Assembly (NCBI RefSeq): GCF_029962835.1 | Contig: NC_080578.1 | Coordinates: 105,329,759 to 105,393,758 of the forward strand | DNA length: 64,000 bases | DNA from: Magnolia sinica | Taxonomy: Eukaryota; Streptophyta; Magnoliopsida; Magnoliales; Magnoliaceae | Reading direction: 5' to 3' | Part shown: positions 1 through 51,930 of the stretch, in pieces | How positions within the stretch are numbered: position 1 is the first letter of the stretch | Layout: the number at the start of each line of letters is the position of its first letter | Position numbers and translations under genes: made by a program | The notes under the pieces: model-generated | What the model was told of the DNA's origin: nothing | The model's database searches: none | The model's input: only the letters and a program-made list of their open reading frames with translations

Positions 1-3000
1 TCAAAAGAAGCTCTTGATGAAGCTAAGATCAGATTGGAGGCACTGGATAAGAAAGATGCAGAGCGAAGGAGAACTGCAGAACTCAAAAACAACCTGGAGG
101 AATACATATATGCCACAAAAGAAAAGGTTTGAAGTTATAAAATTGTATGCTTTTTGAAGAGATGACAATTGCCATGTTGTGTGGTTTTTTAGTCAACAGT
201 TTTGGGTATCTTATCTTACTTTCAGATTTCAATGGTTGATGGTTCTGGATTGTGTTAAGTTCGCTATTCCTCTCATTTATGTCCTTATTGTGATCTATAT
301 TTGAGGTATAGAACTGAGAATTTATATTTCCGTCTTTAGAATTGTTCTCATCTTCAAGTTGGTGAAATTCTTGTTGCTTGTCCGAGCATCCTTTAGGACC
401 ATTCAAAAAAGAAGGGGAAAAAAAGCCTGACTATCCTTGGAGACCCTGGAATCATTATTTCATTCTTTTCCACCCATAACTGATATGACTTTTTGGGTAG
501 GAAAGTATAGTTGAGAGAGAAAATTCACTCTGCCATCTTGGTTGCTCCCATGTTAAGGGTTCTTAAAATCTAGGCATGGCAATGGGCTGGACCTGGGGCA
601 GGTTTTCGGGTCAGGCCTATTCAAAATTTGATTTTGCTAGGCTCAGGCCCTGCCCTTTGCCAGCCTTATTAAAATCTCCATTTGTATCGTTTCCTTTGTG
701 CAGGGTCATCATCATCATCTAAGCCTTATCCAAATTACTTGGGGTCAGTTACATGAATCCTGTTCTGACATGCCACTCTATCAAGGGCCCATCCCTTCAG
801 TTAGACCATGGGTCATCAAGTCTTTTCTTACTACCTCCATTCATGTCCTTTTGGGCCTTCCCCTTGCCCTTTTAGAGACTTTTAACTTGTACCAACTCAG
901 TCTTAACTGGCAAAGTTCTTAGTCTCCATTGCACATGACCAAACCATCTAAATCTACTTTCCCTCATCTTATTACCTAGTTGTGTTACTCCGAAGTTTCC
1001 TCTAACACATTCATTTCTAATTTGATCCTCCCTGTCTTGTCACTCATCCATCTCAACATCCTCATTTCAGCACTTCCCATGAACATTCTGTTCCTTAATT
1101 GCCCTACATTCTGTACCATAAAGCATGGCCGTCTTATAGCTATCCTATAAAATTTTCCTTTCAGTTTGAGTGGTACATGACACTCCCATAAAGCTCCAGA
1201 GGCACATCTCCATTTCTTTCCCCTAGCTTGAATCTTATGGGCAACATCCTTCTCAATCTTTCCACTCATGAATTATTCACCTAAAGTATCGAAAGTGGTC
1301 ATTTTGGGAAATTTCTTGGTCAGCACTCTTTAACTAATTCCTTGTTTTCACTCCTATTGTTAATAAAATTGCAATCTATATGTTCTGTTTTAGTCCAACT
1401 AATTTTAAATCCTTTGAATCTAGGGCACCCCTCCATAAATCTAGCTTTGTGTTTATGCCTTACCACATCTTGTCAATCTAAACTATGTCATCTGCAAACA
1501 ACATGCACCGAGTCTTCTGTCTAGGTTTTGTAATGATATTTCTTGTTTCATAAGATCTCATTTTGTAACTCATTACAGTTTCCATTCATTAGGACCAAGT
1601 AACCTGTTTTGTCTTTCTTTCTTTTGATTGTAGCAAGATCCTTTGAAGTTGACTTTTTAACTTATATACTTCTCTTGATGTTTCTTTTGATGTTGCCACT
1701 GTTTCTTTTGCCAGTTAGAAGATTCTTCGGACATTCAGAAAATATCAACTGAACAGGAGCGTCAGTCCTTCATAAAGAAACTTGAGGAGGTAAGCTTTGC
1801 TTGGTGCTCCTCAGGGCTTAGACCATTGATATTGATTAGAGACTCACTCTCTTGTAATCTGTGCCTTTTCCTTGTTTTTCGATTTCTCTTCTCAGATCTC
1901 TTTGTAAATGACCCATCTTTGCCATTATGGATAGATTCTTAACTCTTTTTTAATTCTTCCACATGTTATGGTTCAACTCTTTTTTAATTCTTCCACCTGT
2001 TATGGTTTCAGGTGCAAGAGTGGCTATATACTGATGGTGAGGATGCTTCTGCAACTGATTTCCAAGAACGACTAGACTCACTAAAAGCTATTGGTGATCC
2101 AATATTCTTCAGGTCTGTTCCTTTGCAATTAGTTCTAAAAAGGCTTCGTTTTCGAGGCAGGGAATATATCCTAATGTTTGACTCTATTTTATGCAGATTG
2201 AATGAGTTAAGTGCACGCCCTGCGGCATCCGAACATGCTCAAAAATTTCTGGCTGGGCTGCAAAAGGTACTTAAGATAGTGAGTAGTAGCATGCTGTGAT
2301 AATATGGAGTTATCATGAATGATATACAACACTGCTTTATGGAGCATATGGATGGGCTGATACGTTTTGGCTTCTTCGTCATAACTGATAAATCGAAAAG
2401 GGGATTGAAATGCCCAAATTCAGACCCATTCCATGGACTGGGTTATAGAAATCAAGAAAGGGAGATACTTTATCCTTTTACAAAGGCATACAGAAAAAAA
2501 CAAAAACAAAAACAAAAAAACGAAAGGAATAAAGACTTTTCAACGTAATTCAGAAATTGCAAAAATGCTCTAAAGTTTTGTTTATTTATCAGCAACTTAA
2601 ACAGCACAAGTACACTGAGAGATCCATTTAACTGGGACTTGTCTCTGTTTATGCATGAATAACCTACTATCAGTGTTCGAAATATCGGTATTGCATTACG
2701 TATCACACCTTTGGGATACGGATACGTATCAGTTATCGCATGTGATATATCAGTTGTATCACATAATGTATTGCTGTTGTTGGAAACATGGGAAAACATT
2801 GGAAATTGGTAGATTTTTTTTAATGAAATTTTAGTGATTGTTAAAAAAGACATCAATACACACTTACAAACCAAAACATTACAAAAAACAAGTGAACATA
2901 ATGGGTTTTCTTTGTATGGGGTCCTAATCTATGCGTTGTCTAACTGAATTGATGCAAGTATATTCAAGGTTTATTCATATAATTTATAAATGTAAGAAAA

Positions 3001-6000
3001 CATATGGAAACACAAGCAATATATTCAAAAGCAAAAGAAGAATCACTAAATCAGGTTACATACATCTTTGGACATAGATTGCAACCAATTTGTGAGAAAT
3101 TGGGAAAATTTTATTTTATTTTTTCAAATTTTCGCAGCTTGGTCCTTCTTCTACAAATCTCAAAATCGAAGCTCCCAATTCATGATTTTTCATGCAAAAT
3201 ATGGAAAAACATGGATTTGTAACAATTTGACACTGATTTAACATGATTTACAAAAAAAAAAAAAGGATTGGAAAAAAAAAAATGCTTACCAGATCGAACA
3301 TGTGGGATATATCGCACTACTTGTGTGTTTCGTATCGCACAAGTGGGATACAAGAAATATCATGGGATATATCGGTCGATATCGTCGATATTTAAAATAT
3401 TGCCTACTATTCATGATTATTTCTGTAGGAAACTGTAACTCAGATTTAGTTGATAAATATGTTCTTTAATTTTATTTTATTTTTTCACATCTTTCTTTAC
3501 TTTCCTGCCATTCTTCTTTACCGCATGGAACATCCAAGAGGGGCAACCTATAGGAAGTTATTCCATTTTAACAGCTTATTTTTAGAATTGGAGATAAAAT
3601 TTCATTCAACATTTTTTTTCTTTCTTTTCAAATTGAGACTAGAATTTTATTTTACCATGCTTCTTTGTTACTCATTTCATGCAACTAGCAACAAAGAGCA
3701 GCAATTGGAAACACCTAGGAAAGTGAATAAAAAAAGCTTCTTTTAACCCAGAATCCACAATGTCTTTTTCCATATCCCCATTGATTCATCACTTCTATTC
3801 CATAAGCTGAATCATGATTCTTAGTGTTGGGGTATAAATGGGCCAAGCTGGGTTAAGGATTGTCATTCCAACCCGTGAGCTAAATGCCTGGGTATAGGCC
3901 AAGACCAACCCTATAACTGAGGATCCATTTCAGGCTCAAGCCCAGCCCAATAGTGTTGAATAAGTTGGTCAGAGCGTGCTGTCTTTTTGGGTCTAGGTCC
4001 AGCCCATGGTCTTCTAGGCTCCAGCCCAAAGTGGGTTGAGCTATTGCAGGCTGAGTCAGTCCAGCCCACTCTCTTTTGCAGTCTGATTTCTCCTCTCCAT
4101 CACATGTCCTACAACCGGCACCTAATCAGTTGGTTGTTTTAGCTGGAAATACCTAGATTCCGATGTTGCAGATGCCTGGTGCCTTGACTTCTACTTGTTT
4201 CATCTCCTGCAGATTGTAATTGGCTGGGAGAATGACAAACCTTGGGTACCTAAAGCCAGAATAGATGAGGTATGAGCTCTAAACAGTGAAGTTTCCCTCT
4301 TCCTTTTTTCCCCCTTATTTATTATTATTATTTTTAATCTAAGGATTAATCTTGAGTTAGCATGTTAGAGCTTTACCTCTTGGATAAAGGAAGTTTATAC
4401 TGATAACATATAAATGATATTTGTTTTCAGGTTGTGACTGAGGCTGACAAGTTCAAGACATGGTTAGAAGAGAAGGAAGCCCAACAAAAGATGTATGTGC
4501 CACTCTTTGTTTGAAAGAATCTGCTGTGTTGAGTAGTCATTTTAGGCAAGAGTTGTTAATAATCCTTATCATGAATATGTTGCTATTTTCTTTTTAAAAA
4601 TTGGGGAAAGAAAGAAAGAAATAAACAAGTTTTCTGTTCATCGATGGATCTTTCTTGTGTAGACGATTGTTCTAAAGTCAGTTAAAAGTTGAGCCAGTAG
4701 GGAAAATGCAAACAACTCTACTTGATTCATGCAAAGAACACTAGCAAGTTCTAGGGATCAATCTAGGAAAACATTAGAATATCAGGATCTGGTGCTTCTG
4801 ACTTTTGAGCCCATAGAACATTCCTCGGGATCATAAAATCCCCAGTTTCTCAAATTGTTTGGTTTTCAGTGATGACTTTTGATTGAGCTCCAGGTACTCT
4901 AGTAAAGGGGTTGCAAAAATCTCTTACTTGGGTAGTATCAAATCATTTAACCCCTTCTGTGGAGAGAGATCTGGTATCAATTTACTTTGACTTTGCATGG
5001 AAGTATTTTGGTGGATGGTAACCTGATTATTGCTAAATAGAGTGATTATTAGTCCACTGTGCACCTAGTGGTGTCCATGACACTCAGCATTATGTGGCTA
5101 TGTTCTCAGCCTCTATAAGCGATAATGCACTATGGATTTTCTTTCCTTTAATAAAAGTGCCTTCTTAGATGGATTATTGTTAAATATGATATGCATCACT
5201 TTTTCCTTTTTGGGACTGTCAATGCCGAGATATCAAGCGTGTCTAAATGGTACATTTTCACATATTATTGTGCTGATATGGATCCCTGTATTCATTCATA
5301 TAAGTTGATAGAAAACTCTATTGGACAACACAGAAGATCCCACATTGTTATTCCCAAGACCAAACAGTCATTATCCGTGTAGTGGTTCTTGTATCTGCTT
5401 TGTTATCAGCAAGCAGATATCAGAATATTATGGATCTCCTTCATTTTTTATTTTTCATGTTCTATCATAATGAGTATATACGTTGTTAAATAAGCTTGGG
5501 ATGCGTAGGATCTCTTGTACTGTTATGTAGTTTTTTTTTTTTTTTGAAAAGAATACTGTTATGTAGTTTAGCTTATGCTTTCAGGCATTTAGATTACATT
5601 GACAAATATTTAGCCACTTCCTAATCATTTCATGCTATACGAGCATCCAGCAGCAGATCTATTTTAACACGCAAGTAATGGTTGATTACCATATATAGCT
5701 CTTACGTTTGCATTTGCAAATAGAGCTATTTTTCACTCAAATAGAGTCATGACTTGCAAGTTCATTATATTTTCTATTCCAGGCTTTGTATGTTTGTGTG
5801 AAGCTTTAATATTAAATTATGACTAAATTATACCTTGTTTTCTCGTTTACAACCAGCACTGCTAATTTCAGTATTGTGGTTCTTTGACAGGGCTGCTGCA
5901 TCAAGCACACCGATATTCACATCAGATGAAGTGTATGACAAGGTTTTCAACCTCCAAGACAAGGTAAATGCAAATTCTCCTCTACCCACAACTAACCCAT

Positions 6001-6581
6001 AATAGAGGGGTATCATGTAATGCTTGACAAAAAGAAACGGTGTTACTGGTGTGCCCCAAGCTGTTGATCTTGTGAGTAATATCATTTGATGAGCCATGCC
6101 CCAAACTCCCCCATCGGATGATCCTAGCCATAAAAATGCAAATCGTAGAATGAGAAACCAATGCCTCACACTTAACCAGGGTCCCAGTGGAATGGTTAGA
6201 ATCCATCCATTGGGGAAGACTTGTGGTATAATCTCCCAATGACCAACCATATGAAATTCAGTTTATAGGGCTGTGCAAATGCTCCATTGAACTTCATGTA
6301 TCTCAACATTAACAAGCTGTATTCATCGAATTCTATCAATTTTTCTCATGGAAACGAGAAACATATTCATATAGGTTGCAAGCATCAACAGAATCCCCAA
6401 GCCAAAGCCGAAGATCGAGAAACCTCCAAAAGAACAAACTGAGAGCGGAGAGGAGAACACAAGCACCACCAACTCTACTACTGAGGACAGCTCTTCCCAA
6501 ACTGAACAACCTACAGGAGATCCTTCCACTTCATCTGACACGGACGCTGGTGCAGAGTCAGAGTCCCATGATGAATTGTAA
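1..6581 (+). CDS. HSP70-17: ER-resident HSP70-17 / GRP170 (HYOU1)-type chaperone, 3' part (last eight exons)
   Basis: The gene enters from the left edge, so its start is outside. Exons read from frame and GT-AG sites: 1-126, 1715-1789, 2012-2112, 2197-2266, 4213-4269, 4431-4492, 5891-5963, 6375-6581. Together they are 771 bp, giving 256 residues and a TAA stop, with phase kept across every junction. The encoded part is the C-terminal helical lid of a large HSP70 (pieces such as LEALDKKDAERRRTAELKNN and EEVQEWLYTDGEDASATDF), then an acidic Ser/Thr/Gln-rich disordered tail, ending in HDEL, the plant ER-retrieval signal. HDEL plus this lid is what the GRP170/HYOU1 class (Arabidopsis HSP70-17) carries: ER-lumen chaperones that also act as exchange factors for BiP. 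The ATPase domain lies outside. The introns hold a LINE relic and a hAT MITE, but no exon is damaged, so the gene looks functional. The family call rests on recognition, not a search. Confidence 0.9.
700..1560 (-). mobile_element. RTE-type LINE relic, 3' part, 5'-truncated
   Basis: On the minus strand this reads as the C-terminal half of a plant RTE-clade LINE reverse transcriptase. The YxDD-equivalent block appears as MLFADDIV (complement of about 1490-1510), and farther on are VPLKLKGKFYR-like and AEMRMLRWM residues, hallmarks of that clade. The frame has several stops and shifts, so it is dead. The element ends in a (GAT)n-type tail near 703-718 (TCATCATCATCATC on +), typical of RTE tails. 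It sits in the first visible intron of the chaperone gene, in antisense orientation. Confidence 0.8.
2671..3402. mobile_element. Nonautonomous hAT element (0.73 kb), copy 1, with 8-bp target duplication
   Basis: The ends are inverted and imperfect: CAGTGTTCGAAATATCG at the left, CAATATTTTAAATATCG read inward from the right. The flanks 2663-2670 and 3403-3410 are both CCTACTAT, an exact 8-bp target duplication, the hAT hallmark. Subterminal parts are full of GATATATCG/ATATCG words in both orientations. There is no coding capacity. It lies in the intron between chaperone exons 2197-2266 and 4213-4269. A near-full-length relative is at 59892-60652. Confidence 0.85.
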
Positions 6582-7856
6582 TCTGACCCTTGGTGACTTA
6601 AAAAGCCTGTGGCTGCATGACCAGATAGCCGATGGCCGCCTAACCATCACAGTGGCACCTTTTGATGAGATACACTACACTTTCAGAACCCTAGGATGAT
6701 TATTCTCTGTTTTTGTCATTAGGGGTTATATGCAGGTCGCGTAGCTTCTGCGGCCCACAGTTTTGATAGGCAGCAGTGGTTCATATGAGCCTTGAGATGT
6801 GTCCTTTGAACTATTTAAATGTAGTTGATCATCCCCACATCATTAAGGGGTGACCCACCTGCATTCAGCGATCATCTAATATACAAATCACCCTAACAGG
6901 GATTAGGGTTTCTTCCCCTTTTTGTACACTAATTGTGTTGAATATTGTTATGATCAGTTACAGATCTCTATTTAATCTTCCTCTTTTATGTTTCATAAAC
7001 TTTTCTTTGCCATTTGGTTGGGTGTGGGAATTAGTCATTGAAAGCAAATGGTGCAGCTAGCGATCTCGGCATTGAGTTATGTTTAAACGTCAGCTGAATG
7101 TCACTCTATGGGAGAGTGCTCCAGCAGCTCCATTTCATCTAGAAATGACAGCAGGTGCACTCTATGACACACATTATCCCGTCTGCCGCTTTGCCTCTGC
7201 GTAAACCGGTCCTTTATTTAATGGATTTTGGAAATTCTACTCCTATTGCAGTGGCAGAATCATGGCCTTAAACAGGTTGGCATGCTAAAACTAATGGTGG
7301 TTTTAAATATTTGGCATTGGAGTTTATATGCATTCACATCTATCTCAAGCAGCAGTTTGTAATTCAATGTGGGGCCAACCATATTAATGGCCTAGATGTC
7401 TTGTATATGACATGTTGGCCGGCATATGCAAGGCGCACAGTAGCATGATCTTGTCTAGTCATGTAGCTTGGTCAGTCTTTTTTCGGGTCTTTAACACCAA
7501 AACCTAGTAATGTTTATATCTAAAATTTTAGGTATTGTAGAGCCTTGACACATCTAAGTCTGGTGTGAAGTTTTGAGTTTTCCCTGTTTCACAATAATAA
7601 CTGACCCAATTTAGTAGACTGAGCTGAGTCAGGCATTTCTCAAGTGTTCAGACAGGTTTTGACAAGTGGGGCCCATGGTTAAATAACTAATCCAAAACAT
7701 TGGTCAGTTGGACCATGCAAACTCCATGGACAAGATATGCCCTATTTGCAAGGAACATCAGTTGATGTGGTCTTCAACCCATAAGTACCACCTTTGCAAA
7801 TGAATGTGGGACATATTTGAATGCTTGCTCAGGTTAGCAGGGACCTGCTGGACAGA
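6582..7856 (+). other. 3' UTR of the chaperone gene, then intergenic sequence
   Basis: The transcript probably ends within about 400 bases of the stop, in T-rich sequence near 6900-7000; no single poly(A) signal can be singled out. From about 7000 to the CACTA end at 7857 I see no gene or recognisable repeat. Confidence 0.5.
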
Positions 7857-7960
7857 CACTACAAGAAATGAGGGCAAAACTGACGGTGGATGGAACTCTT
7901 TGCCGGCGCGAACCAAAGCCGGCCGCGGGCAAAGGGTCCCTATTAAATAAAAATCATGGT
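7857..7960. repeat. Left CACTA terminus with GC-rich subterminal motifs
   Basis: CACTACAAGAAA is the canonical start of plant CACTA (En/Spm) elements. It is followed by GC-rich TTTGCCGGCGCG and GCCGGCCGCGGGCAAAGG words that stand out from the AT-rich surroundings; such subterminal words are transposase-binding sites in this superfamily. Confidence 0.75.
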
Positions 7961-7984
7961 GCCCTAATCTCATTCGGCCCTTTA

Positions 7985-8078
7985 CCTCTCCCCATCACCT
8001 ACTCTCTGCGCCTCTCTCTCCCCGCTCAATCTCTCTCTGCCTCTCTCTCTCTCTCTCTCCCTCTCCACTCTCTCACCC

Positions 8079-8135
<57 letters not shown>
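7985..8135. repeat. (CT)n microsatellite
   Basis: Long CTCTCT runs, nearly pure from about 8087 to 8132. It lies just inside the left CACTA end. Long translations through this stretch are low-complexity artefacts. Confidence 0.95.
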
Positions 8136-10450
8136 GTCTTGAGAACCTTCATCTCTCTCTCTGTCTTCCATCCTCTGGCACGAACCGAAAACCGCAGTTG
8201 TTATGCTTGTCCATCCTGCACGAGCAGAGCAGCAGGTCCGGCCAGATCTGGTCCTTTTACTCATTGCAAACAGGTACAAATCTTAGCCGAAATCACACCA
8301 CAATGGCATTTCACCAAAACATCCCTCCGCCCTCAATTCTATTCCCTTCCCTTCCCTCCCTCCCTCCCTCCCTCCTAGGTTTTGCGATTTTTTCTGTTTT
8401 AGAGATGGATACTGCAAATAAGTTTTGAACTCAGGAATGTCTGTGCTGGAGCCTTGGAAGTACTTGTATGCGTTTTGTTCTTAATATGGTGAATTTGCTC
8501 GTGGTTGGAGATTTTTGGGCTTTTTATGCATGGATATAGGCGATCTCCAATCTTCAGATGGGCTTTTTACTAGTAAATTTTTTCCAATTTTGGAAAAATC
8601 TGATATGCTTTTTGTTTGTTGTCCAATCTCCTGGTTTGAGACAGCTGTGGATTTGCTTCTGGTTGGAGTTTTCTGGGCTTCATATGGGCTTTTTACATGT
8701 TCTTTTCTGTTTGTTTTCCTATCTCCTGGTTTGAAACTTCTGGATTTTTGGACATGGTATTGCAGAGAGGACCCATTAAGGGGTCTTTCGTATGTTCTTT
8801 TATGTTGGATTCTTGGGATTTTTCATATGGTTTTTGTTGTTTGTTTGGTTAATTTTGCTTCTAGTTGGTGATCTCTGTGTTTTATAGACATGGGTATTGT
8901 GAGTATTTGGTGGAGGTCTCTGACATGCAATTGTATGTTGAAACATTGAAAATTTTCACAAGAGTTTTCAACTGATTTTCTTCTTCAATTTTTCTTTCAT
9001 CACATTGACATAAGTGTGTGAATATGATGGTAGGTGCTTCATCATATTTCCAATTGATTCATCGTCTTCTTCTTCTTGATATGATTGGACTGATAGAGCA
9101 TGGCGAATTAATCCATTTTATCTCATAGCCCAGGCCCCACATTCATGGGTTAGGTCCTTAGCCGAACCCTCCTTATGGGCTCCACCCAAATCATATTTGG
9201 TTTGCAGATTATTTTTATTTTTATTTTTATTTTTTATTTTTTAAAAGCATCAGAATGTATTATATTCAATTGAGAATGTACTGCAATAGCCCCATCATGC
9301 AGCCCTTCTCGAAAATGAGGTTGGTCCACTTGTTAGGTAGGCCACACTTGTATGATGAATATGAACCTTGGTTGTTCATTCATTACATGCACGTGCATTT
9401 GAACATGTGTGCGTACATGTGAGCTACCATAGTGGAAATGATGCTAACTTTCGTTGACTTGATCCACATGCTAACCACCTTTTTGGAAAAACTTGTTTTA
9501 ATAAAAAAAAATTTTGAAAACAACTTCGATAGGTTCAATATCCAAATAAATCTTTAGACATGCACGATTTAAAAATATTTTGATCACAGCTTCACTTTGC
9601 TAACAACTCATAAATATTTAGCAAATGAAATTATTAATGTGAATCATTGCAGTAATACATCAACATTGATATGTTTGAACTTTGCTAACATATCTTCACT
9701 GACTCTAGTTGTGGATATATTGGCTGGCATCACTGATTTCCTTTTTGTGTGATTCTTCCAAAGATAATTATTGTTGTGAGCAATCTCTTTCCCATCATGT
9801 CTATGTAAATAATATGTGTATTACTGGTCTTCTCCTCTTATAAGCTTTGTTTCTTCTTGGCCAATTTTAGAAATATATTACTCACGGTGGGATATGTTTG
9901 AGACTACACATTAATTCATGGCATCTAGAAGCCATAGAGCTGTACATGGAAGTCTCACGATTGGATAGTTTGATGATTTTAGAATGGTTTCTAGTCCTTG
10001 TACTACAATTAGAACAGAGTTCTAATGCTACTGCTTTTGTTAAATTAGGACTTTTTCCTTTATCACAAGATGATCGATTAACATGGTATGTAGAGCAGAC
10101 TTCTTTGTACTTTGTATGCAATGATGTTTTTTTTCTTTTCTTTTCTTTTCTTTTCTTTTTTCTTTCTTTCTTTCTTTCTTCTTCTTCTTCTCTTTTTATT
10201 TTTATTTATTTTTATTTTTATTTTTTATAATTTTAATTTTCTTTTATAATGTCCACTTCCTGGATTCAATCTCTACCTGAAAATTTTCCTTGTCTAGTGC
10301 TACTTCCTGTCAGTTTTTGTAGCCAAAATCTTTTTTTTTTTTTTTTTGCATTATACAGATGATTTGCCTTGCTTTCTCAAGACCATAAAAATAGATGGCA
10401 GATGTTTCAATCCAAATTTCAGGCCGGAGATACTTATTTAGCTGTCTAAT
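8136..10450. other. Interior of the CACTA element, no recognisable gene
   Basis: T-rich sequence. 8160-8275 looks like a spliced 5' leader (exon-like, followed by GTACAAATC), and about 8490-8760 contains a loose twofold repeat around TCTCCTGGTTTGA. Pyrimidine-rich low-complexity sequence fills about 10126-10240. I see no protein family here. Confidence 0.4.
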
Positions 10451-10566
10451 GCAAGTGCTCAGGTCCTATCCTCTGTTTGAACAGTTATGTCAGAGGACTT
10501 GATGTTGCTTTTCCAATCGATGCTCATGCTTGGAATTTGTATTGGACTTGCTTTCAATGTGGTTTT

Positions 10567-10714
10567 GCTTTCAACTGATAAAAGATCAAGACTAATGGAT
10601 AGGTTAGGTTGTTCACACCCTCGACCTTTATGGGCATGGTGCATTAACGTGGGAAAGCGATTCAACATGGTTTTGGGAATCACCCAGGGGCTTCTTTATC
10701 TTCGCCAAGATTCT
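10567..10714 (+). pseudogene. Captured fragment of an S-domain-type receptor kinase (kinase subdomains V-VIa)
   Basis: The frame gives DKRSRLMD, then after an unrelated insert GKRFNMVLGITQGLLYL followed by RQDS. This resembles the D-K-x-R-x-x-L-x-D-W ... KRFNIVLGIARGLLYLHQDS block just before the catalytic HRDLK of plant S-locus and cysteine-rich receptor kinases. The catalytic loop is missing and the sequence runs into a stop soon after, so this is a fragment only. About 45 bases between the two matches look like retained intron or inserted sequence. The match is from memory and short. Confidence 0.5.
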
Positions 10715-10739
10715 ATATTTCTTTTCACATAAATTTCCA

Positions 10740-12770
10740 ATGAATGTTTCAGTTAGATCATAGTTAAATTTTTACCAGTGCAGCTACTAATATTTATGGA
10801 TTCTACAGTTTGTATATGAATATTCATATTGGCCTTTGTGGAAAAATTTGTATGTAGGTCTTTATGCTTATAATCATTCCATTGAATGGCCCATTCATAA
10901 ATCTGTGCCTATATCTTCTATTTTAACTGCATGATGTAGCATGTATAACTATTGACATGACCATGATAAGGCTGATAATTGATTTTTGGTAATTGTAATG
11001 ATGGTAATCAATAGATAAATGGTACATATTACTGGGCTATGGGCCCCACTTGTCATTGTTGAATACCTGTGCATACTGTTAAGAGACCCGCATTACGCAT
11101 ATAGGGAGTTATTTGATACTCTGGCAGCGTATGACTCTTTTACTAAAAGTATGTCTCTAATCATTCCATCAAAATTATGTTCCACTCATGCATTTACTAA
11201 AAGTAAGTGAGGCTAATATTTTCAAATGAATTCTTTTTATCTTGTGACAATAGACGTGTGTCCACAAGCACCAAGCATCTTTTAAAAGGAAAGCTTCGGA
11301 TAATTAAGGCAGCAAAAAATGGTTCATGCTTTCTTGAAGTATGGATGTTTGGGCAGTCCCAAACATAGGTGTTTCTACTTATGCAGTTTGTGAATTCATT
11401 TCATTGATAATGATCTGTGGTTCTTTGACACTGCTCCTAAGAAAAAACAGTTGGAAAGGATGGGCTTCTCTCCACTCGACGACAACATGAATGGTTTTAG
11501 TGGGACCCATTTTCAGAAACTGTCTGCAGTTCAAGTCCTCTTGGATTTGTGTAGCAGAAATGAGCTCTAAGGGAGGGAGTCTCATATGTGGATCTCAATA
11601 ACCTAGGACAGCTGCTTAACTGTACAAATTATTTCTGACCATATAATCAAACTATATTCTAGCAATACAATACTAGTATAGCAGTACGAATGCGTCTAAG
11701 AGTTATACAACAACATCTATTCGTATGCACACCTAAGAATATGGAAAATCATAATCAAAATAAATTCTGCTACTATACTACAACCATATCAATGCATATA
11801 CATCCTATGTGTCTGAGAAGCATTTTTTTCTCCTTCTTGTTGCTTATTCAGCCAATTAAAGGTGAAAATGTAAGGTTTCTCCTGTTTGGTGGATAAATGG
11901 TTTTGTCCATTTGTAGGCTCGCACTAGGGGTCGACATTCAGCCATATCTCACTTCAGTTCAGGCTTTCACTATTTCCCAATCTTCCACTGGCTACTTCAT
12001 ATTTTTCTTTTTCTTTTCCCAAAGTAGTTAAACAGATAGCCCTTCATGAGTTCATAAGCGAAAATAAGGGTTGAGAATTTGGTACTCTCTTGACTTTTCT
12101 TTTCTTTTTTGTTGTCTCATGAAACTGTAAGGAGCATAATGTCATGGTTATTTGCTTTTTTGATGACTTGATTCATTAGTTCTTTAAGGAATAGTCAGAA
12201 GTGTTGTATTTGCAATACCTTCAGCTAACTTCTTATGGAAGCACAATTTTTGTTCTGGCTTGTCATATTTCTAAATTTCTCTGATCACCATTCTTGATAA
12301 ACACTACTAACATCACCACTTAGGAGTTTTGAATATCCAAAGTCACCGAGGTATTTTCACAAATCTGTGCATCATTAATTATCTCATGTCTAATGTATGA
12401 ATATTGTGGGCTTGGCAAAGGTCAAAAACAGAATCCTCATAATGCAGTTCCAGGTTATTTTTCCCTTTTTCTTTAATGATGAATACCACGAAAGTGGTGA
12501 TGTTTCTTATTTTACGACTTGTTATTTTTTCTCACAGCATCTACCAAGGTCACTGGCATGCACCAGAACTAAATATGGTTACTTTTTATGTTTCTTGCAC
12601 TCTTTTTTGCATTATTTTTTAACATAGGGACTTGGGGGCTGTTACTTTGTAGTTTGTGAACTTCTGCTTGTATATGCCGGTCACAGGTGGCCTGATTGCA
12701 TCATCATATTGTTTGTGAATGAAGTTACTTGCTATATTGCTTTTACCTTAGTTTGCTTTTCTTTTATGGG
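10740..12770. other. Interior of the CACTA element, no recognisable gene
   Basis: AT-rich sequence without long frames, clear splice-bounded exons or repeats that I can assign. Confidence 0.4.
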
Positions 12771-12775
12771 GACAC

Positions 12776-12790
12776 TACTAGAAAATGGAG
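12776..12790. repeat. Isolated CACTA-like terminus
   Basis: CACTACTAGAAAATG begins here and matches a common plant CACTA TIR. No partner end was found, and it lies inside the larger CACTA, so it may be a nested truncated element or chance. Confidence 0.35.
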
Positions 12791-12861
12791 CTTAGCATTG
12801 GAACTGATTAGAGTTTTTTGTCCATTCAAAACATTGGAACTGATGGTTCTTTCATTTTCAG

Positions 12862-13424
12862 CTGACTGAGAGGATCACTATTCTGTCTACCTACTATTAC
12901 GGTGAGGATCAAACCACCCAAGATCCCATAAGTTTATGATGTGCTCCATATTTCTTTTTCTTTTCATTTATTTCTATGAATAACATAACAGAATTCACCA
13001 TATCTTCCTGCCAATGGTGTTTTGGGAATTGAGTGTATTATAAATCCCCATTTTGCAGGGTTTTTGAAATGCAATTTTGAGGTGAAGACTCTTTTTCAAT
13101 GTGCTCTGTTCCAATCCCTCTGTCCAGTCCTGGACTGTCATTGCTGCCTGCTGCAACTTGTTTCTGCAAGTGTCAAATGTGTCTTTGATTTTGGCAGCAT
13201 GTCATTAGAGCATTTAAGTGTGATTTTTCTATTTATGTGGTAGAACTGATTGTGCCAAAAGCTTGCTGGATTGTGATTATCATTACCTTTAATTTGGTTG
13301 TCTTTAATGGTGTGATGCTGGTAATTGATTTATCTAGGTTGTTCATTAGAAAGATTCAGAAGTGCTGAAAGATGCAAAGGCGTTGGTTGACGGAAATTTG
13401 GTGAACATCTTCGACCAATTGCAG
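12862..13424 (+). other. Two exon-like fragments of unidentified genes
   Basis: 12862-12901, after TTCATTTTCAG and before GGTGAG, reads LTERITILSTYYYG. About 13350-13424 reads DSEVLKDAKALVDGNLVNIF then DQLQ. Both have open frames and plausible splice borders and lie on the same strand as the recognised captured exons. I do not recognise either family. Confidence 0.35.
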
Positions 13425-13756
13425 GCTGGTACATTAATGCTTGCTGAATGATTCAATACATTTTTCCTTCTCAAATTATTTCCAGAACATAATTTTGAAT
13501 ACAACATATATCTTTTACATTAGAGGGATTCTCATCTCGTTGGATATTCGGGTCCATTTTCATAAACATGGATGGCACATTTACTTCACATGGGTTCATT
13601 TGTAAGACATATTTACATAAAAATATTCGTTTCAAGCTTGGATGCTCTACTTTTGATAACAAAGGTTTTGTTCTATGCATTGATCTTCTTATTTCTTCTA
13701 CTACAGTTATTCTATGATTTCTTCTTTTACACCTTATTTCCTGATTAAATTTTCAG

Positions 13757-13825
13757 GTTTCAAAGTTTAAAGATCCTCGTGATGCATGTGCTGCAATTGT
13801 CGTTGAATCATATCGTCTTTTCTTC
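13757..13825 (+). pseudogene. Captured exon fragment of a plant PP2C phosphatase
   Basis: Directly after a TTTTCAG acceptor the frame reads VSKFKDPRDACAAIVVESYR, then diverges. This matches the C-terminal part of the plant PP2C domain, in particular the PP2C/cyclic-nucleotide-binding/kinase proteins, where FKDPRDACAAIVAESYRLWL precedes RTDDIT. The metal-binding TDD motif that should follow is absent, so this is a cut fragment without activity. Confidence 0.7.
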
Positions 13826-14482
13826 CCTGATCCGGTTTACGAGTCTCATTGTTCCTATTTGGCTAGTCATGCATTTTATTTTAAGTAACCATTTTCAATT
13901 CCATGCCAGACAAGTGGGTCTCACATTTCAACAATCTATTTATTGGGCTGTTGAGTCTCACCGTGGATGGAGAATGCCCAAAAAATCTCTCACATTGGAT
14001 CTTTTTCAGTTGAATATGGATCATTGTTCAATTTCTCTTCTTAACTGCTTCTATAGGCTACAAATTGGCAGATTAAGATTGCCCTATCAGTGGGATTTTT
14101 AAGGCATAGCCCAATTGCTGATGGGTAAAATTGATCAATGGTATGGATTCTGATCCACACAACCCACTTGTCTGAGTTGAAAGGCTGTGTATACCATGCA
14201 AAGATGCAGGCCACATATCCTGTAATTCCTCAATTATGGCAGTTAGCTTAATTGATATTAAATTTGGATATGCAGGAATTGGGATGCAGGAAGATTCTTC
14301 AAATGTCTATTCATTCATGGTTTTATAAAAGAAATATTTGTTTAAGATGTATCATTGCTTCAAATGGATCATATTGTTTGGCACTATAACTTTATATACA
14401 GTGCATGTTTCAGCTTGTCAAGTGCATCTATCAATCAGTTCAAACCCAATATGGTTATAATTTATCTGGTCCTTTCTTGCAG

Positions 14483-14583
14483 AACCTAGAGGAGGAAAGC
14501 ATTTGGCCAATGCTAGCGATAGAAAGTTTGAAGGCTCTAGGTGGACCTGGCCTGCTTTCCCTTGGAGGAAAATACCTACTCAG
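14483..14583 (+). other. Exon-like fragment, unidentified
   Basis: A 101-bp segment between TTCTTGCAG and GTGTATC. One frame reads EPRGGKHLANASDRKFEGSR and continues WTWPAF, leading towards the kinesin exon downstream. It may belong to the same donor gene, but I cannot place it. Confidence 0.35.
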
Positions 14584-14685
14584 GTGTATCTTTGAAGTTG
14601 GTATCATATTCCTAATAATAACTCAATCTCGCTGTCTGGTTGGTATTTTTGAGTTTGGAACTGTGTTCTTGCTTCACTTGTGTAG

Positions 14686-14751
14686 GAAGAAGACGCTCTC
14701 ATTTCAGCTCATAGAAAAGAAATTGAAGAGACGATGGAGATTGTGCGTGAA
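14686..14751 (+). pseudogene. Captured kinesin-13 exon
   Basis: A 66-bp, 22-codon exon with intact acceptor (TTGTGTAG) and donor (GTAAGT), containing LISAHRKEIEETMEIVRE. This is the start of the conserved C-terminal helix of plant kinesin-13 (EEEALIxAHRKxIExTMxIVREEM), downstream of the motor. The following exon (NLLAEVDQPG...) is not present. Kinesin-13s depolymerise microtubules or act at the Golgi and cell wall in plants; this fragment alone does nothing. Confidence 0.7.
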
Positions 14752-15439
14752 GTAAGTCTGTCCTACATTGGCTCTCTGCTACCTTTTTAGTTCAAAATCA
14801 CCATATGTTTCTGAATTACTAATGATGCATGACTTGTGGATTCTAACATATATTATTGATTGTAATTGATTTTTCTTCCATCCTCATTGCTTGCAGAATG
14901 ATTGTTTTCCAACTGATGTACTTTTGTGGATGAAATGCTTTTATGATTTCCATGAGCAATGCTCCTCACGAAAGTGTCGTTTTTACTAACTGGACTGTTT
15001 TGCTGACGGCATTAATATACAAACTATATTTGATCATGGTGTTTCTCTTATCTAGAATGTTTATGTTAAATAACTCCAAGACATGGTTTCTTACTTCTTC
15101 TGTATGTTTTCTGTAACATTGGTTTCCTGCAAGTAGCTACATTGTATGTTTCCATCTCTCAAAAGCTATGCTGTATCTCTTCTTTCATCTGCAAATAACT
15201 ATTCGTTTCATCTACTAATCAACCAACTAGAATCATTCAGCTACTGATATTTTTGAACTCTTCTAGTTAAACTGCTTGCTGTAGTATACTCCACTGAATC
15301 TCTATTGCAGCTGATAATCTGCAACATTTTTTCTTTTATTTTTTGCATCCAGTTGTCATCCATTCTTGATGCATTTAATTAGGTCGTTTTTCTTGATAAT
15401 GGTGTGCTGACCCTTCTGAAAAAAACTTTCTATTATTAG

Positions 15440-16247
15440 GTCTCTTCAGGGAAATAGGCTTACTGGGAAGATTCCAGAAGTGATAGGACTCATGCAAGCT
15501 CTTGCTGTTTTGTAAGTTTTGTACTGTCTTCTCAAATTCTTTTCATTTTTTTTTTTTCAAAATTTCTTTTCTTCCTGAATAACTGCATGCATCTTTTCTT
15601 GTGCTGTGAAGAAAACATTCCAGCAATTTGGGTTGTGCTTTAAATGGTTGGCAGAAGTTCTATGATATATCTGCTGACCATATCACACGCTCTCTCATTT
15701 ACCTGGCATTGGAACTGGCCATGGCAGAGGTGCATATTGGGACAACTTTCGCATATCATCTCTTAATTTCTGCCCTTCAATGGTTGAGTTTCCCGCACTG
15801 TGGCCTCAATTATTGGTCATGTTTATGAGTTGTGTGAGCTTATCTTTGAACCAGTGATTCCTAACCAGTCTCTTGGTCTCATTTCAAAGTCATATGTTCT
15901 ATTTTCCTTATATTGCTTAATATATTGTTTATTGTGCAAGTCCTATTCATCAATAGTTCAGGTTTGATATTAGAGTTCGGCCAGAAGCTGGAGAGTCTAA
16001 CATATCTGTAAGTCTTAACCAGAAGATATTAGAGTTGGGCCAGTCATTTGTCTTCAATTGAACATATTCTAATTTACAATGATGTCTTTGTACAGAGGCT
16101 TGCAGTTATTAAGTGCACATGTTTTCATTAGTATATTTATGCTTTTACCAATCTGTATTTTCTTTGAAACTGCAGAAACTTCTCTTCGAACAATTTCAAA
16201 GGGAGGATCCCTGTTGAGTTAGGGCGCATAATCAATCTTGATACTCT
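15440..16247 (+). pseudogene. Captured ERECTA-like LRR receptor kinase fragment (three exons, two complete)
   Basis: Two complete 72-bp exons, each one 24-residue leucine-rich repeat: 15440-15511 (LQGNRLTGKIPEVIGLMQAL) and 16176-16247 (SSNNFKGRIPVELGRIINL). A degraded remnant with KLESLTYL lies at about 15979-16007. Acceptors and GTAAGT donors are kept. The one-LRR-per-72-nt exon structure and these exact repeats are those of ERECTA/ERL receptor kinases, which control stomatal patterning and organ growth. The LRRs usually found between these two exons are missing, so this is an internally deleted gene piece. Confidence 0.8.
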
Positions 16248-16349
16248 GTAAGTTGCAATGCAAGCTTTCAATGGTTATGTTGTGGTCAATTATTTTATAC
16301 GTAGGGTTTTTAGGGTTGATTTTGGTTAATAAAGTCCACTGCGATTGGT

Positions 16350-16793
16350 ATGCAAGCATCGGATGGGATTTTGGCTACTAGGAAGAGCAGTTTGAGAAAA
16401 GTGGAGGGAGCCTGGATGAGATCTTGGTCAAACATCAGTCAGTGCTTGAAAAGGAGAAGTTGGCCATGGCCCAACAATCTGTTAATGCTGAGCATTCAGA
16501 AACGCGTCGAGAAGCAAGAGAGGGAGTTGCAAGAAGCATGGGGAGGACTGAGCTTGGGAAATTCTATAAGACCCCATCTTTCAAAACTGGAGCGAGAAAA
16601 GGCAAGCAGCGCAGATTGTTTCTTGTTTCACATTTTTCTTAATCAGCTTCTTCTTCTTTTTCTAATTCTGTTTTTCCTTTGTTTATCTCATTTCTTTTTT
16701 TTCTTTTTTTTTCCTTCTCAGGCTGCTTGGAAAAGAGCTGAGGAAGAGGAGCAAACGCGAGCAAGGGGCTGAATTGCTAGATTTCAAGACCAA
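16350..16793 (+). pseudogene. Captured coiled-coil gene fragment, unidentified
   Basis: Charged helical sequence split over two frames: SGGSLDEILVKHQSVLEKEK in one, then QERELQEAWGGLSLGN and RPHLSKLEREKA in another, and after a T-rich intron-like gap AAWKRAEEEEQTRA. The frame change near 16470-16510 shows it is broken. It is probably one host gene exon pair. I do not recognise the family with confidence. Confidence 0.45.
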
Positions 16794-16931
16794 GCAGTAA
16801 TTATCAGCTTCCTGTTCCACCTTGTTTTGTTCATGAGCCTGCTATGTCTACCAGCTGAGTTGGATTTTGAATCCTAGTCACCCGTGCAGGAACTGGGCCC
16901 CTCACCTAACCCCATGTGTTTTTCCCAACAA

Positions 16932-17096
16932 TGATTTTTCTTTTATCAGATTACTGCCAACCTTGTTTGAAGAAGAGCAAGGGAGTACCAACCGTGTGAT
17001 TTTTCTTTTATCAGATTGCTGCCAACCTTGATTGAAGAAGAGCAAGGGAGCACCAACCATGTGAATTTCTTTTATCAGATTGCTGCTACCTTCTCA
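16932..17096 (+). repeat. 65-bp tandem repeat, about 2.5 copies
   Basis: The word TGATTTTTCTTTTATCAGAT recurs at 16932 and 16997, and in altered form at 17062, a constant 65-bp period. Each unit includes an acceptor-like TTTTATCAG followed by CTGCCAACCTTG and GAAGAAGAGCAAGGGAG. Confidence 0.85.
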
Positions 17097-18659
17097 CTGA
17101 AGGTGTAATATTCAATTTTTTCATTCAGCATTCCTTAAAAAAAATCAACAATGTTTTTCCACTGCCATCTTTTCTGCCTTTCAATTGTGAGTATATATGG
17201 CTTATGCTTTTCTTTTCCCTTCATCTGTTCGGCCACTGCCATTCGAAACTGACTGATTTGCCTACAACTATGTAAGTAGGGCTCCATGGGTCAATGATCC
17301 AGACCATTGAATTGAGCTCATCCGACCCATCGTGGATGGACTTCCCAAAAGATCTCCCAGATTGGAAGATTGTAGCCCAAATGTTGGCTTTTCAAGTTGA
17401 TGTTGAAATGGTAATGTATCTTTCTTAATAATGTGAAGTTGTCCTATCATTTTGAGGATGGTCCACCCATGGTGGGCGCCTAAGAGCCCATCAATAGTAT
17501 TGGGCGCCTAAGCCCCTCGTGACCTTCCTCATGCACAACTTTGTATCAAGGTTTGATTCATCATCCTGAGCTGTTTATAGTTTTGTTGAAAACTTAAATG
17601 TCTAAACATGTTTGTTGCATCAAGACACGAGTACTCTAATTTTTAAGTTTATGACTTCCTGGCTGTTTATATGAGATATTACCTTTCTTGGCCAGGCTGT
17701 GGACTCAATGGGGAGAACAGAATAATCGTTGCAGTAGGAACCTACGCGGTCAGCTTTGAAGACTTTTAGGAGGGCAAAATCAAAGATCAAGTGGGCTTAT
17801 GGATTGTTAGGGTGGTGGTGATGTTGTTGTTGTTGTTGTTTTTTTTTTTTTTTTTTGGCTTGTAAATAGTAGTAAATTGTTGTTGTTGCTAGGTTTTGTG
17901 GCTGGTTGTTTTCTCAGCCGTAGATTTCAGGCTCTTTTTCCAAAGTTTTTTTTGGTGGGGTGTTCAATCACTATACTCTCTCCAATAATATGGTCCACCT
18001 GAGATTTTTGGGCTCATGGTTTTTTCCCTCTTCCTATATCCCTCGTCCATAGATATAGCGTTTGAATCAATATTCTTCCTATATGAGTTGATATTATTAA
18101 ATTCTAATTCCTTCCCAATACCTTCCCTGAATGAGGTTGCTATAATATCTACCCAACAACAAGTGGTGGAGGCGTCTCATGCATCTCATGCATAAGCCTT
18201 TACGTGCCAACGTGGCACATGGTCATGACATCCAAGACGTTCATCAGGTGCAGTCCACTGTAGATTCCCTGACACTAGAATCAAGCTGCTACACTCATCA
18301 GATGGGCCAAAATGTCAGGCTCTATCGGATGGCTTAGAAGAACTTGGCCAAAAATATAAAAGAAAAATCTTCTGTTATGTAAGCTGTGAACCACCTGACG
18401 AGCGGAGTGGACTGACCTCACTTTCCTGGAAGGGAATCTAAGGACGGTCTGGATCTCACGCTTGTGCATGCCATGTTGGGACGACAGAAACAGATTGGGT
18501 GGTGAATCTAGGCCAAAATGTTCAATCCAACAATGCAGTAGTTTGGATGGTAGATTTCATATAATATTCACTATTATTTATAATCTAAGGCTACGGATCA
18601 AATCCAAATGGCGTCTCTGTGTCCATAGTCTTTTCCTGTTTTCCTCTCACACTTATGAT
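17097..18659. other. CACTA interior without a recognisable gene
   Basis: Contains a dispersed-repeat segment at about 17276-17480 (CACCGTGGATGG/CCATCGTGGATGG type) related to 13920-14110, and a (TTG)n/T run at 17826-17857. No exon could be assigned. Confidence 0.4.
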
Positions 18660-18828
18660 TTAGGGCGGCCCGAAAAACCGCCGGTAAAAGGTGCTGGCTG
18701 CCGGTAAAACCTTTACCAACCGAGCCTTTGCTGGCTGTTGCTTGACAGCCGGTAAAATATTTACCAGCGGTTTTTTGGACCTTTGCCGGCTGTTTTGACC
18801 GCCGGGAAAGGCCCATTTTGTTGCAGTG
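18660..18828. repeat. Right CACTA terminus with subterminal GCCGGTAAA repeats
   Basis: GCCGGTAAA/TTTACCGGC-type words recur about seven times in both orientations, ending in TTGTTGCAGTG at 18828. These are GC-rich subterminal repeats like those at 7857-7960. Confidence 0.7.
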
Positions 18829-19239
18829 AGATATTATAGAATAACACCCTTTGATGAGAGAGATGAGCAAGAGGCTCTGAGAAAACTATTGGGTAACCAA
18901 TAGCGTAGTACCATGTGGGAAATGTGAAAAGAACCACCATCGGAGAGTGAAATAGAACATGAAACCGTGAGCTTTGAAGTGGTGGGAGGAGAGATCTTTA
19001 ACTGAAGAGATATAGCAACCAGTATATCTTAGCTAGTGGGACGCAAACGTGCCTCTAGCCCGAGTTGGGTCAAGCGTCAGGCATGGGGCCGATTCTCGAC
19101 CAAACTCACCAGAGTTGCAATAACTTAAAACTACCCATTTTAGACATTACAAATCAATAGAAAAACAACAGATGCCATGATGTATATCAAGAATATGGAA
19201 ACTAATACCCCATCAAGCTTGATGCTGGCTCCTAGCTTG
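18829..19239. other. Flanking sequence without features
   Basis: Begins with the AGA target duplication (18829-18831). I see no gene or assignable repeat in the rest. Confidence 0.4.
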
Positions 19240-19856: not shown

Positions 19857-22352
19857 TAAAGTAGCTCGTTCTACCCCAAAATTATATATTTTACGCCCGA
19901 TAACTCATTTCGGATTGTGAGATATGCCCGATCTAAGGTCCGACAGTTCGGATCACTTCTGTTGTCGACCAGGCCTTTTCTGATCAATCTTGGCCATGAA
20001 ACTGTCCACGACTCGCTCTACATCAATCCCCTCCACTTCAAAAGAACTTGTCTTCGAGTTCTCATCCTGCTCTGGTTTATGCTACTTGGTCAAGCCCGCG
20101 ACGTTGAAAGTCCGTGAGATCGCCATGTCATCTTGAATATTAACAACATAAGCGTTGTCATTGAGCTTTCGAATGATTGAGACGGGTCCAATCTTCTTAT
20201 TCTTTAACTTGTTGTATGTCCTGATCGAAAATCTCTCTTTGCCTCGATGGACTATAATGCGGTCGCCTACCTCAAATACTTTTTGTCGTCAATGCTTGTC
20301 CGCTTGTTTCTTGTACTTCTCGTTCGAGGCATGTAGCTTGGTCTGCACTTCCGCATGGATACCCATGATTCTGTCTGCGATATGTTCTGCTGCAATGCTC
20401 GTGCCTGGGAGCTTGAACAGAGGGACCAACTCAAGTATGTGGTGAGACACTCGTCCGTAGATAATCTAGAACGGTGACTTCCCTGTCGAGTAGTTCACCT
20501 TGTTGTTGAATGCAAACTCTGCTTGAGATAAAGCTAAATCTCACTGCTTCGATTTTTCTCCTGAAATACAGCGAAGGAGGTTTCCCAACGTGCGATTCAC
20601 AACCTCGGTCTGCCCATCAGTCTGTAGGTGGTAGGTGCTGCTGAATTGAAGCCGTATATTGAATCGAGTCCACAAAGTCCGCCAAAAGTGATTAATGAAC
20701 TTCGTGTCACGATCAAAAGTAATGGTCTTGGGGACCCCATGTAGCCGTACAACCTCCCTGAAAAATAGATTCGCCACGTGTTGCATTGAGGGTCTTCTTG
20801 CATGGGATAAAGTGCGCCATCTTGGAGAAACGATTTACCACCACGAACACCGAATTCGTGCTGCGTTGTGTTCGTGGGAGACCAAGCATGAAGTCCATAG
20901 ATAAATCCTCCTAAGGACTGTCAGACACAGGTAACAGGGTGTAGAGGCTTGTATTCTGAGATTGCCCCTTGGAGGTCTGACAAACATGACAACGTTGTAT
21001 GGCTTTTTCCACAACACATACTAATTGCGGCCAGTAATACCGTTCTTCCACAAGAGTTCGCGTCTTGTCTCGCCGAAGGTGTCCAACCGGGCCACCTCCA
21101 TGTAGCTCTTGAATAATCTGCTCTCTTAGAGAACTTTGGGGGATGCACAATCGATTCCCTTTAAAGAGGAAACTGTCCTGTATATGAAGGTCACTGGGGT
21201 GACCTTTTTGATACTTCATCCAAGAATCTTTGAAGTCCCCATCCTCGACATACAGCTCCTTGAGACAGTTGAACTTGACCACCTCGTTGCTCATCGTAAA
21301 AAGTAGTGATGCATGACGACTAAGTGCATCAGCCACCTTGTTCTGCTGCCTCGACTTGTGCTTTAGAAAGAACGTGAATTCTTGTAAAAACGCAACCCAT
21401 CTATCATGCACACGATTCATGTTAGTTTGACTATTAATAAACTTTAATGCTTGATGGTCAGTGTACAGAACAAATTCTCTTTAAATTAGATAATGTTGCC
21501 AATGTCGCAGTGCCTGAACAACTGCGTACAACTCAAGCTCATAAGTCGACAACTTCTTTCGAGCTTCGCTGAGCTTCTCGTTATAAAAGGCTATCGGCCT
21601 GCCTTCCTGTGATAATACTCCTCCGATTCCGACGTATGAAGCGTCACCCTCAACCTCAAACAGCTTGTCGAAATTAGGAAGCACCAAAACTGGTGTTGTA
21701 GACAAACGATGATTGATCTCATGAAAGCTCTTGTCAGCTTTATCGGTCCACTGGAACAGTCTTTTTTTCATACAATTTGTTATAGGCGCGACTATTATGC
21801 TAAAATTTCGCACGAATCGACCATAGAAAGTCGTCAACCCGTGAAAACTCCCCACTTTATGAATGTTTGTCAGGATTGGCCATTCCCTAATGGCCCGCAT
21901 CTTTTCATCATCCACACAGATGCCTGTGGACGTTATAACAAATCCTAGAAACAACAAGTTGTCCGTTAAAAAACTACACTTCTTCAAGTTAAGATACAAC
22001 TTTTTAATTTGTAGGACTTGTAACACCTGCTTGAGATATTTCTTATGCTCCGTCTCATCCTGACTATATATTAATATATCATTAAAATATACTACCATAA
22101 ATCGGCCAATGAACGGCTTTAGAACTTGATTCATCACACGCATAAAAGTACTTGGTGTGTTCGATAGGCCGAAGGGCATGACTAGCCACTCATACAACCC
22201 TTCCTTGGTCTTGAATGTCGTTTTCCACTCATCACCGGATCGAATAAGAATATGATGATACCCGCTCCTTAGGTCTAAGTTTAAAGAACACCTTGGCCCC
22301 TTCTAGCATATCGAGCATGTCGTCCCATCGTGGTATTGGGAACACACAGGCC
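19857..22352 (-). mobile_element. Ty3/Gypsy retrotransposon relic (pol region), broken
   Basis: Minus-strand pol order: reverse transcriptase at about 22.3-21.7 kb ([20 protein letters not shown]), RNase H at about 21.7-21.4 kb, integrase zinc-finger region at about 21.4-20.9 kb (YWPQ...CHVCQ), integrase core at about 20.9-20.5 kb ([14 protein letters not shown]) and integrase tail to about 19.9 kb. The RT, RNase H, integrase order is that of Ty3/Gypsy. Gag and protease are not seen. It is a fossil with several breaks; age cannot be set because paired LTRs are missing. Confidence 0.85.
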
Positions 22353-26430: not shown

Positions 26431-26668
26431 ACTAGTCACAGATTCGTCACTAATCATCCACAGTCGAATAGAGAGATACCCAGTCTGATCATGTTGCTTA
26501 CTGTGATATGGTCTATCCACATGATCGCCCAACGGAATCAACAGTCCTGATCACCATCGAGCAGCTGCTTCATGGTGTCATTCCGCTATTGCAAACTGAA
26601 GCGATTCCTCTCCTGCATGGTTAGAGATTCATCTCTAATCACCCACAGTCGAACAGAGACATATCAAC
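26431..26668. repeat. Duplicated ~45-bp PPR stop-codon region
   Basis: 26622-26668 contains the last codons and stop of the PPR gene. 26431-26478 repeats it with about 80 percent identity: both read, on the minus strand, SLFDCG or SLFDCG-like codons, TGA, then a GATTAG(A/T)GA...GAATCT block. The spacing is about 190 bp. Confidence 0.75.
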
Positions 26669-51829: not shown

Positions 51830-51930
51830 CAGTGTTTTAAATAGCGAATCGCGTGTAGAGTAGCGTTCACCCCTCTGAAGCGTGAAGCATAAGCTACATA
51901 GCGTGTAGCGTATGCTATATGCCACTTCTA
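51830..51930. repeat. hAT-like terminus with TAGCG words
   Basis: CAGTGTTTTAAATAGCGAATC resembles the ends of the ATATCG hAT family but is followed by repeated TAGCG/GCGTGTAG words. No partner end was found. Confidence 0.4.

Follow-up and report, generated by a model that had tools for sequence, protein, structure and literature searches.

Introduction

CACTA transposons that carry pieces of host genes are already known from several plants. In soybean, the 5.7-kb CACTA element Tgm-Express1 contains fragments of five unrelated genes and gives rise to chimeric transcripts (PMC1947982). The Pack-CACTA elements of Arabidopsis and maize are non-autonomous and have CACTA ends around coding DNA, which in maize often derives from several loci (PMC8903248). 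According to a published model, two neighbouring elements can be mobilised as one through their outer ends (PMC8903248; reviewed in PMC13317346). In Chenopodium, CACTA elements with captured gene fragments have been described, and two CACTA subtypes are present in one genome (PMC8978399). Here we consider the CACTA-type insertion at positions 7857-18828 (10,972 bp) of a stretch of Magnolia sinica contig C6 (105329759-105393758), 64,000 nucleotides long, which as a whole is called the window below. It is very probably a single non-autonomous, gene-carrying Pack-CACTA element, inserted as one unit in a copy of rpoB and made a mosaic by element fusion. Among the known gene-carrying CACTA elements it stands out by the unusual legibility of its fusion history.

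Tgm-Express1 is likewise a CACTA element with five unrelated host gene fragments and introns. However, it lies in an intron of an expressed gene, whereas the magnolia element, 11 kb against 5.7 kb, lies in a plastid-derived stretch and is known from its sequence alone (PMC1947982). In comparison with the Pack-CACTA elements of PMC8903248, the magnolia element still shows in its interior, as a trace of the probable fusion, a terminus that belongs to a second family, and its modules are traceable in separate elements. The Chenopodium elements have transposase domains and carry their gene fragments in the 5′ region, whereas no Transposase_21 was seen in the scanned frames of the magnolia element (PMC8978399). 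On CACTA gene capture in Magnolia the literature searched yielded only the Chenopodium work.

Results

Insertion as a unit and target site

The element is bracketed by the triplet AGA at 7854-7856 and 18829-18831, a 3-bp target duplication as is usual for the CACTA superfamily. The flanks and ends are as follows.

7729-7856, forward strand: left flank, an rpoB copy ending in AGA (7854-7856); evidence from empty sites L051-L055 and the peptide match of L052
7857-7869, forward strand: left terminal inverted repeat, CACTACAAGAAAT; the GCCGG-rich subterminal region continues to about 7960; a family terminus in the genome
18505-18828, forward strand: right terminal region with GCCGG repeats and the terminal inverted repeat at 18816-18828; evidence from the right-end family search
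18829-18890, forward strand: right flank, AGA (18829-18831) and the continuation of rpoB; evidence from the joined-flank search, the empty sites and the reading frame

The genome was queried with both flanks joined at a single AGA. All 36 candidates were scored and gave 39 match rows, two of which are the window's own flanks; in 10 of the 39 the match extends past the joint by 20 bp or more in both directions. Five empty sites (L051-L055) were fetched, and all five are continuous over the joint with the triplet present once. These paralogous rpoB copies are unbroken between the bases equal to 7856 and 18832. Because the empty sites are continuous across the joined flanks, both outer ends must have been placed in one event, and the observation is confirmed that all 10,972 bp entered in a single event. 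By the same evidence the element moved as a unit together with its cargo, as a Pack-CACTA does. A preliminary description of the window, made without database searches, had claimed one CACTA element with AGA flanks here, and the empty sites bear it out. That description had looked for proof to an empty site with a single AGA; the proof comes from paralogous sites and not from an allele, and of the five sites read four have AGA and one (L054) GGA.

To judge from the sequence, the element went into a nuclear rpoB copy of plastid origin. The peptide of L052 matches positions 861-901 of the plastid RNA polymerase beta subunit (PDB 8w9z; E 5.5e-16), and the joined flanks of the window hold the rpoB reading frame locally over the joint, with stops farther off. 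Copies of rpoB type that resemble the insertion site are present on many contigs.

Ends of the element

The left end CACTACAAGAAAT begins at 7857 and the right end TTTTGTTGCAGTG finishes at 18828; they are of the CACTA/CACTG type and lie in inverted orientation, as in other members of the superfamily. Their likeness is weak when taken alone: 254 of 2000 random pairs of 60-mers from the window align equally well, and end likeness was dropped as proof of the element for this reason. The motif GCCGG/CCGGC is clustered at the ends, with 10 of its 39 sites in the window lying in 290 bp of sequence from the two ends, in the manner of subterminal repeats.

The left 244 bases gave 614 first-look candidates; scoring of the best 40 of the 614 returned 51 match rows, 31 of them from base 1. 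Twenty left-end copies were fetched, 10 kb each, and 16 of them start with CACTACAAGAAA. The right end was reached in seven of the twenty, five of which have identical 3-bp flanks (L010 TCC, L021 CCA, L022 CTC, L025 TGA and L026 AGA). With the right terminal region as query, the best 40 of 350 candidates were scored and all 40 rows match; the right ends of L010, L012, L022, L025 and others belong to the same right-end family. The preliminary description had held that copies pairing the left end with a different right end would speak against a single element. In five of the seven copies that reach a right end, the left end is paired with this one right-end family within a matching duplication.

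One of these copies, at 554-893 of L026, is a 340-bp miniature of family 1, with both ends present and an AGA/AGA duplication.

Modules, joints and related elements

If the whole element entered as one unit, where did its parts come from? The left, middle and right modules were each found separately in other CACTA-type elements.

7857-12772, forward strand: left module, the backbone of CACTA family 1, about 4.9 kb; pieces (81-100% by piece) common to nine fetched copies
12773-12796, forward strand: relic of the left terminus of another CACTA family (family 2), CACTACTAGAAAATGGAGCTTAGC; it agrees at 23 of 24 bases with the start of family-2 elements at C5, C3 and C15
12802-15100, forward strand: middle module (block A), about 2.3 kb, also present in family-2 CACTA elements; contains the PP2C-like, antiporter and kinesin-13-like pieces
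17504-17849, forward strand: segment common to two sibling CACTA elements (C3:36.107 Mb and C12:78.84 Mb); sequence match
17850-18504, forward strand: unassigned stretch that joins the preceding segment to the right terminal region; nothing in the fetched siblings matches it

In six fetched copies, homology to the left backbone runs out at 12777. Block A is matched from its first bases (12802) in 11 other genomic places, including C3:121.85, C15:2.82 and C5 copies, and two of its carriers, at C3:121.85 Mb (CCT/CCT) and C15:2.82 Mb (AGA/AGA), are family-2 elements with matching flanks. The antiporter/kinesin joint inside the block is also present in three of the 11 copies (C5, C18 and C1). The C5 copy has, in addition, an apyrase-like exon (PF01150, 7.7e-7, for a peptide joined over a frame change) which is gone from the window element; OSTMP1 and two weaker Pfam rows for the same peptide were below cut-off and set aside. 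On the right, the sibling at C3:36.107 Mb also joins the ERECTA-like gene to the coiled-coil gene, in the order seen in the window but with different breakpoints, as expected if both elements derive from one ancestor by different deletions. The right part of this sibling is also present in the C12:78.84 Mb element.

The joints themselves were crossed by the window only: 12773-12802 with all 28 candidates scored, 15100-15115 with the best 40 of 49, and 16346-16348 with all three, so at these three joints no second copy of the exact fusion was found. The query 16250-16480 (3/3 candidates scored) matched, besides the window, only the ERECTA-like and coiled-coil loci. Because the modules occur in separate elements and no other scored place crosses the three joints, the element appears to be a mosaic of three CACTA-type lineages, each already holding its part, which were apparently fused. 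The preliminary idea of a single element with many donors thus stands as far as the unit is concerned, but the content looks assembled by fusing CACTA parts and not by stepwise capture.

Part of block A is also locally amplified: at L035 (C8:7.28-7.78 Mb) six copies of its PP2C-containing part (window 13062-13904) form a cluster within 0.5 Mb.

Captured gene pieces

Host coding DNA lies between the CACTA ends, as in Pack-CACTA elements, in the form of five gene-derived pieces on one strand, each matching another locus at about 92-98% identity.

13446-13912, forward strand: PP2C-like piece made up of intron parts and, at about 13758-13818, a truncated exon; L048 (C15:55.10 Mb), 92-95% in four pieces
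14366-14630, forward strand: K+ efflux antiporter (KEA-like) piece, exon at about 14483-14594; L049 (C16:65.31 Mb), 94.7%
14646-15100, forward strand: kinesin-13-like piece, exon at about 14684-14752; L050 (C17:11.08 Mb), 94.3%
15115-16346, forward strand: ERECTA-like piece with internal deletions, leucine-rich repeat (LRR) exons at 15115-15145 (partial), 15442-15512 and 16178-16249; L030 (C18:15.75 Mb), 94-100% by block
16348-17503, forward strand: coiled-coil gene piece bearing a deletion and, in its first exon, a 2-bp frameshift; L031 (C11:31.14 Mb), 93-97% by block

At least four unrelated host genes on one strand had been proposed earlier, and about five loci are now traced. The exons then called PP2C, kinesin-13 and ERECTA-like, names presumably right, each map to another locus, and two of the "several unidentified exons" are now accounted for as the antiporter exon and the coiled-coil gene. 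A separate receptor-kinase piece, also claimed, was not found, with no Pfam hit in the three forward frames of 8000-17998; this is a weak negative, as Pfam missed the real pieces too (0 of 5 detected). Kinase exons are present in one of the siblings, L021.

In the PP2C-like exon about 80 bp of the L048 locus are missing after 13818; its peptide has no Pfam or PDB match (Zap1_zf2, 0.017, is below cut-off). The joined exons of the C16:65.31 Mb antiporter locus match PF00999 with E 7.9e-20, and we take the gene to be of the KEA type. The kinesin-13-like peptide has no PDB or Pfam match; six other places match all 455 bases of this piece or all but one, and three of them are block-A copies.

The C18:15.75 Mb locus is an LRR receptor-kinase gene with a long run of LRR exons, and its LRR domains are confirmed by Pfam (weak rows below cut-off, namely LRR_6, LRR_LRWD1, Toxin_4 and Pkinase, were set aside). 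Among its PDB matches GSO1 and FLS2 rank first, with ERL1 and ERL2 among many LRR kinases; the name ERECTA is our presumption. About 630 bp of the gene are absent from the element, and part of this additional stretch resembles window 51830-51940. The C11:31.14 Mb locus has a 640-codon open frame reaching the edge of the fetched stretch, and for this coiled-coil gene there is no Pfam family.

The joint between the ERECTA-like and coiled-coil pieces has the short homology TATG, and the internal deletions have overlaps of 5 bp and 3 bp. Introns are retained in the captured pieces, which points to capture at the DNA level, and splice signals are still visible at the exons. The sample for comparing exon and intron divergence from the donors is too small to tell selection. 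Most likely the gene pieces are now non-coding passengers.

Pieces of the ERECTA-like gene occur in at least 27 other places besides the gene itself (best 40 of 49 candidates). Two of these, L040 (C17:15.06 Mb) and L042 (C19:0.77 Mb), have 2.8 kb in common at 96%, of which 1.7 kb is ERECTA-like gene, and together with L041 (C1:7.77 Mb) they depart from the gene at one common point. They probably represent an independent capture, amplified within a further repeat. As a source of the piece in the window these block B copies were rejected: they exit the gene at another point, so that the source would be the gene itself or a longer capture.

Transposase and coding capacity

No transposase was detected by Pfam in the forward frames of 8000-17998 or the reverse frames of 12778-18500, and within these frames the element lacks its own transposase, as Pack-CACTA elements do. 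The sole open frame of at least 170 amino acids (aa) within it is a CT-repeat frame at 7868-8428. Transposase_21 was likewise not detected in the scanned frames of L010, L012, L018, L021, L022 and L025. These scans covered both strands over most of the length for L021, L022 and L025, the forward strand only for L018, the full forward strand and reverse 2673-6780 for L010, and the forward strand with part of the reverse for L012. Rows below cut-off were disregarded: on the window's reverse strand DUF7477 (0.01) and gag_pre-integrs (0.042), and in L012 Zn_ribbon_Nudix (0.041). In the genome Transposase_21, the domain of the TNP2-type transposases by which CACTA elements are mobilised, is abundant: the best 150 of 1669 candidates were scored and all were above the cut-off.

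Strand direction of the captures

All five donors in the window are in forward orientation. Related elements carry, also forward, a myo-inositol-phosphate synthase exon (L010, 5.8e-17), a PCNA exon (L022, 1.2e-7), and protein kinase exons (5.5e-11) with a piece of RNA polymerase Rpb2 (9.4e-8) in L021, all by Pfam; in L025 no donor was detected by Pfam on both strands over most of its length. The total is 9 of 9 traced donors in four elements (the window, L010, L021 and L022). Since the window was chosen partly for its one-strand feature, only the 4 of 4 outside it make a fair count, and they are no more than suggestive. Pfam is also a blunt tool for fragments of this type, having detected none of the window's own five pieces. 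The apyrase-like exon of the C5 copy is forward too, in an element of which only the forward strand was scanned. In the literature searched, as far as it was accessible, no paper on orientation bias of captured fragments was found.

Other features of the window

Outside the element, the minus strand at 26639-28864 has a 741-aa open frame, presumably a PPR protein. An inverted partial copy of it lies about 8 kb away, at 35774-37274, with 90.8% identity. Open frames at 21481-22197 and 53197-58991, the second stretch with several long ones, are what we take to be reverse transcriptase-like frames of long terminal repeat (LTR) retrotransposons.

Discussion

How could such a mosaic have been put together? 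A family-2 element which already held the PP2C-like, antiporter and kinesin pieces would have landed within a family-1 element or next to one. Fusion with a third CACTA lineage, carrier of both the ERECTA-like and the coiled-coil piece, may then have come about through deletions and end-joining, aided by short homologies. Finally, transposase supplied from elsewhere would have mobilised as a pair the two compatible ends that lay furthest out.

Several points weigh against this interpretation. The order of the fusion events is one that we infer, and the nested family-2 element has lost its right flank, so that a nested insertion is indistinguishable from an adjacent one or from template switching. 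In L012 and L024 the right end is reached and the 3-bp flanks are not identical. The interiors of the family-2 elements at C3:121.85 and C15:2.82 Mb were read only in part. No left end turned up in the 12.7 kb of the C3:36.107 Mb sibling that were fetched, which extend to its right end, and the pair of ends at C12:78.84 Mb has the unlike flanks TAA and TGA; the right-hand lineage does not appear as a complete element with matching duplication in C3, C12, L012 or L024. Among the frames and copies scanned, no autonomous partner with these ends was identified and no mobilising transposase was seen. Finally, the PP2C-like locus L048 itself looks frameshifted, and PP2C and kinesin-13 are names that we presume for their pieces.

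Of the other possible histories, the one that survives best is that one element took the five genes successively, by abortive gap repair and template switching, with no fusion of gene-carrying elements. The short homologies at the joints and deletions and the DNA-level capture of the introns would suit it, but block A is found ready-made in separate family-2 elements, the family-2 terminus starts exactly at 12773, which template switching does not predict, and the ERECTA-like/coiled-coil pair is present in a sibling element. We regard successive capture as unlikely.

A question of function is whether the element could act as a functional chimeric gene, or could regulate the donor genes through small RNAs made from it. 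Five pieces on one strand with visible splice signals would allow this, and Tgm-Express1 of soybean gives a precedent for chimeric transcripts (PMC1947982). However, the coiled-coil exon carries its 2-bp frameshift, the PP2C exon is truncated, and the forward frames of 8000-17998 contain no Pfam domain, which makes such a role very unlikely. A further alternative would be a row of at least two unrelated CACTA insertions, separated by host DNA, that were never mobilised together. The internal terminus at 12773 and the non-significant likeness of the outer ends taken alone might suggest it, but it has almost no probability, since the empty sites reject it unless an exact later deletion is assumed.

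Returning to a mosaic formed by fusion of CACTA elements, the strand pattern invites a further idea, that the family is a directional, modular exon shuffler in which pieces are kept almost only in the forward direction of the element. A transcript running from the left end could take up forward pieces as spliced exons, whereas pieces in reverse orientation would poison or silence it, and elements would trade gene-bearing modules by fusing at each other's ends. We consider this rather unlikely and put it forward tentatively. If the one-strand pattern held genome-wide, transcription or silencing of the element would decide which captures survive.

With its empty sites, donor loci, siblings and fossil terminus, the magnolia element offers a cleanly provable case of gene-carrying DNA transposons growing by mutual fusion, and the published model for the re-mobilisation of neighbouring insertions becomes directly checkable in magnolia.

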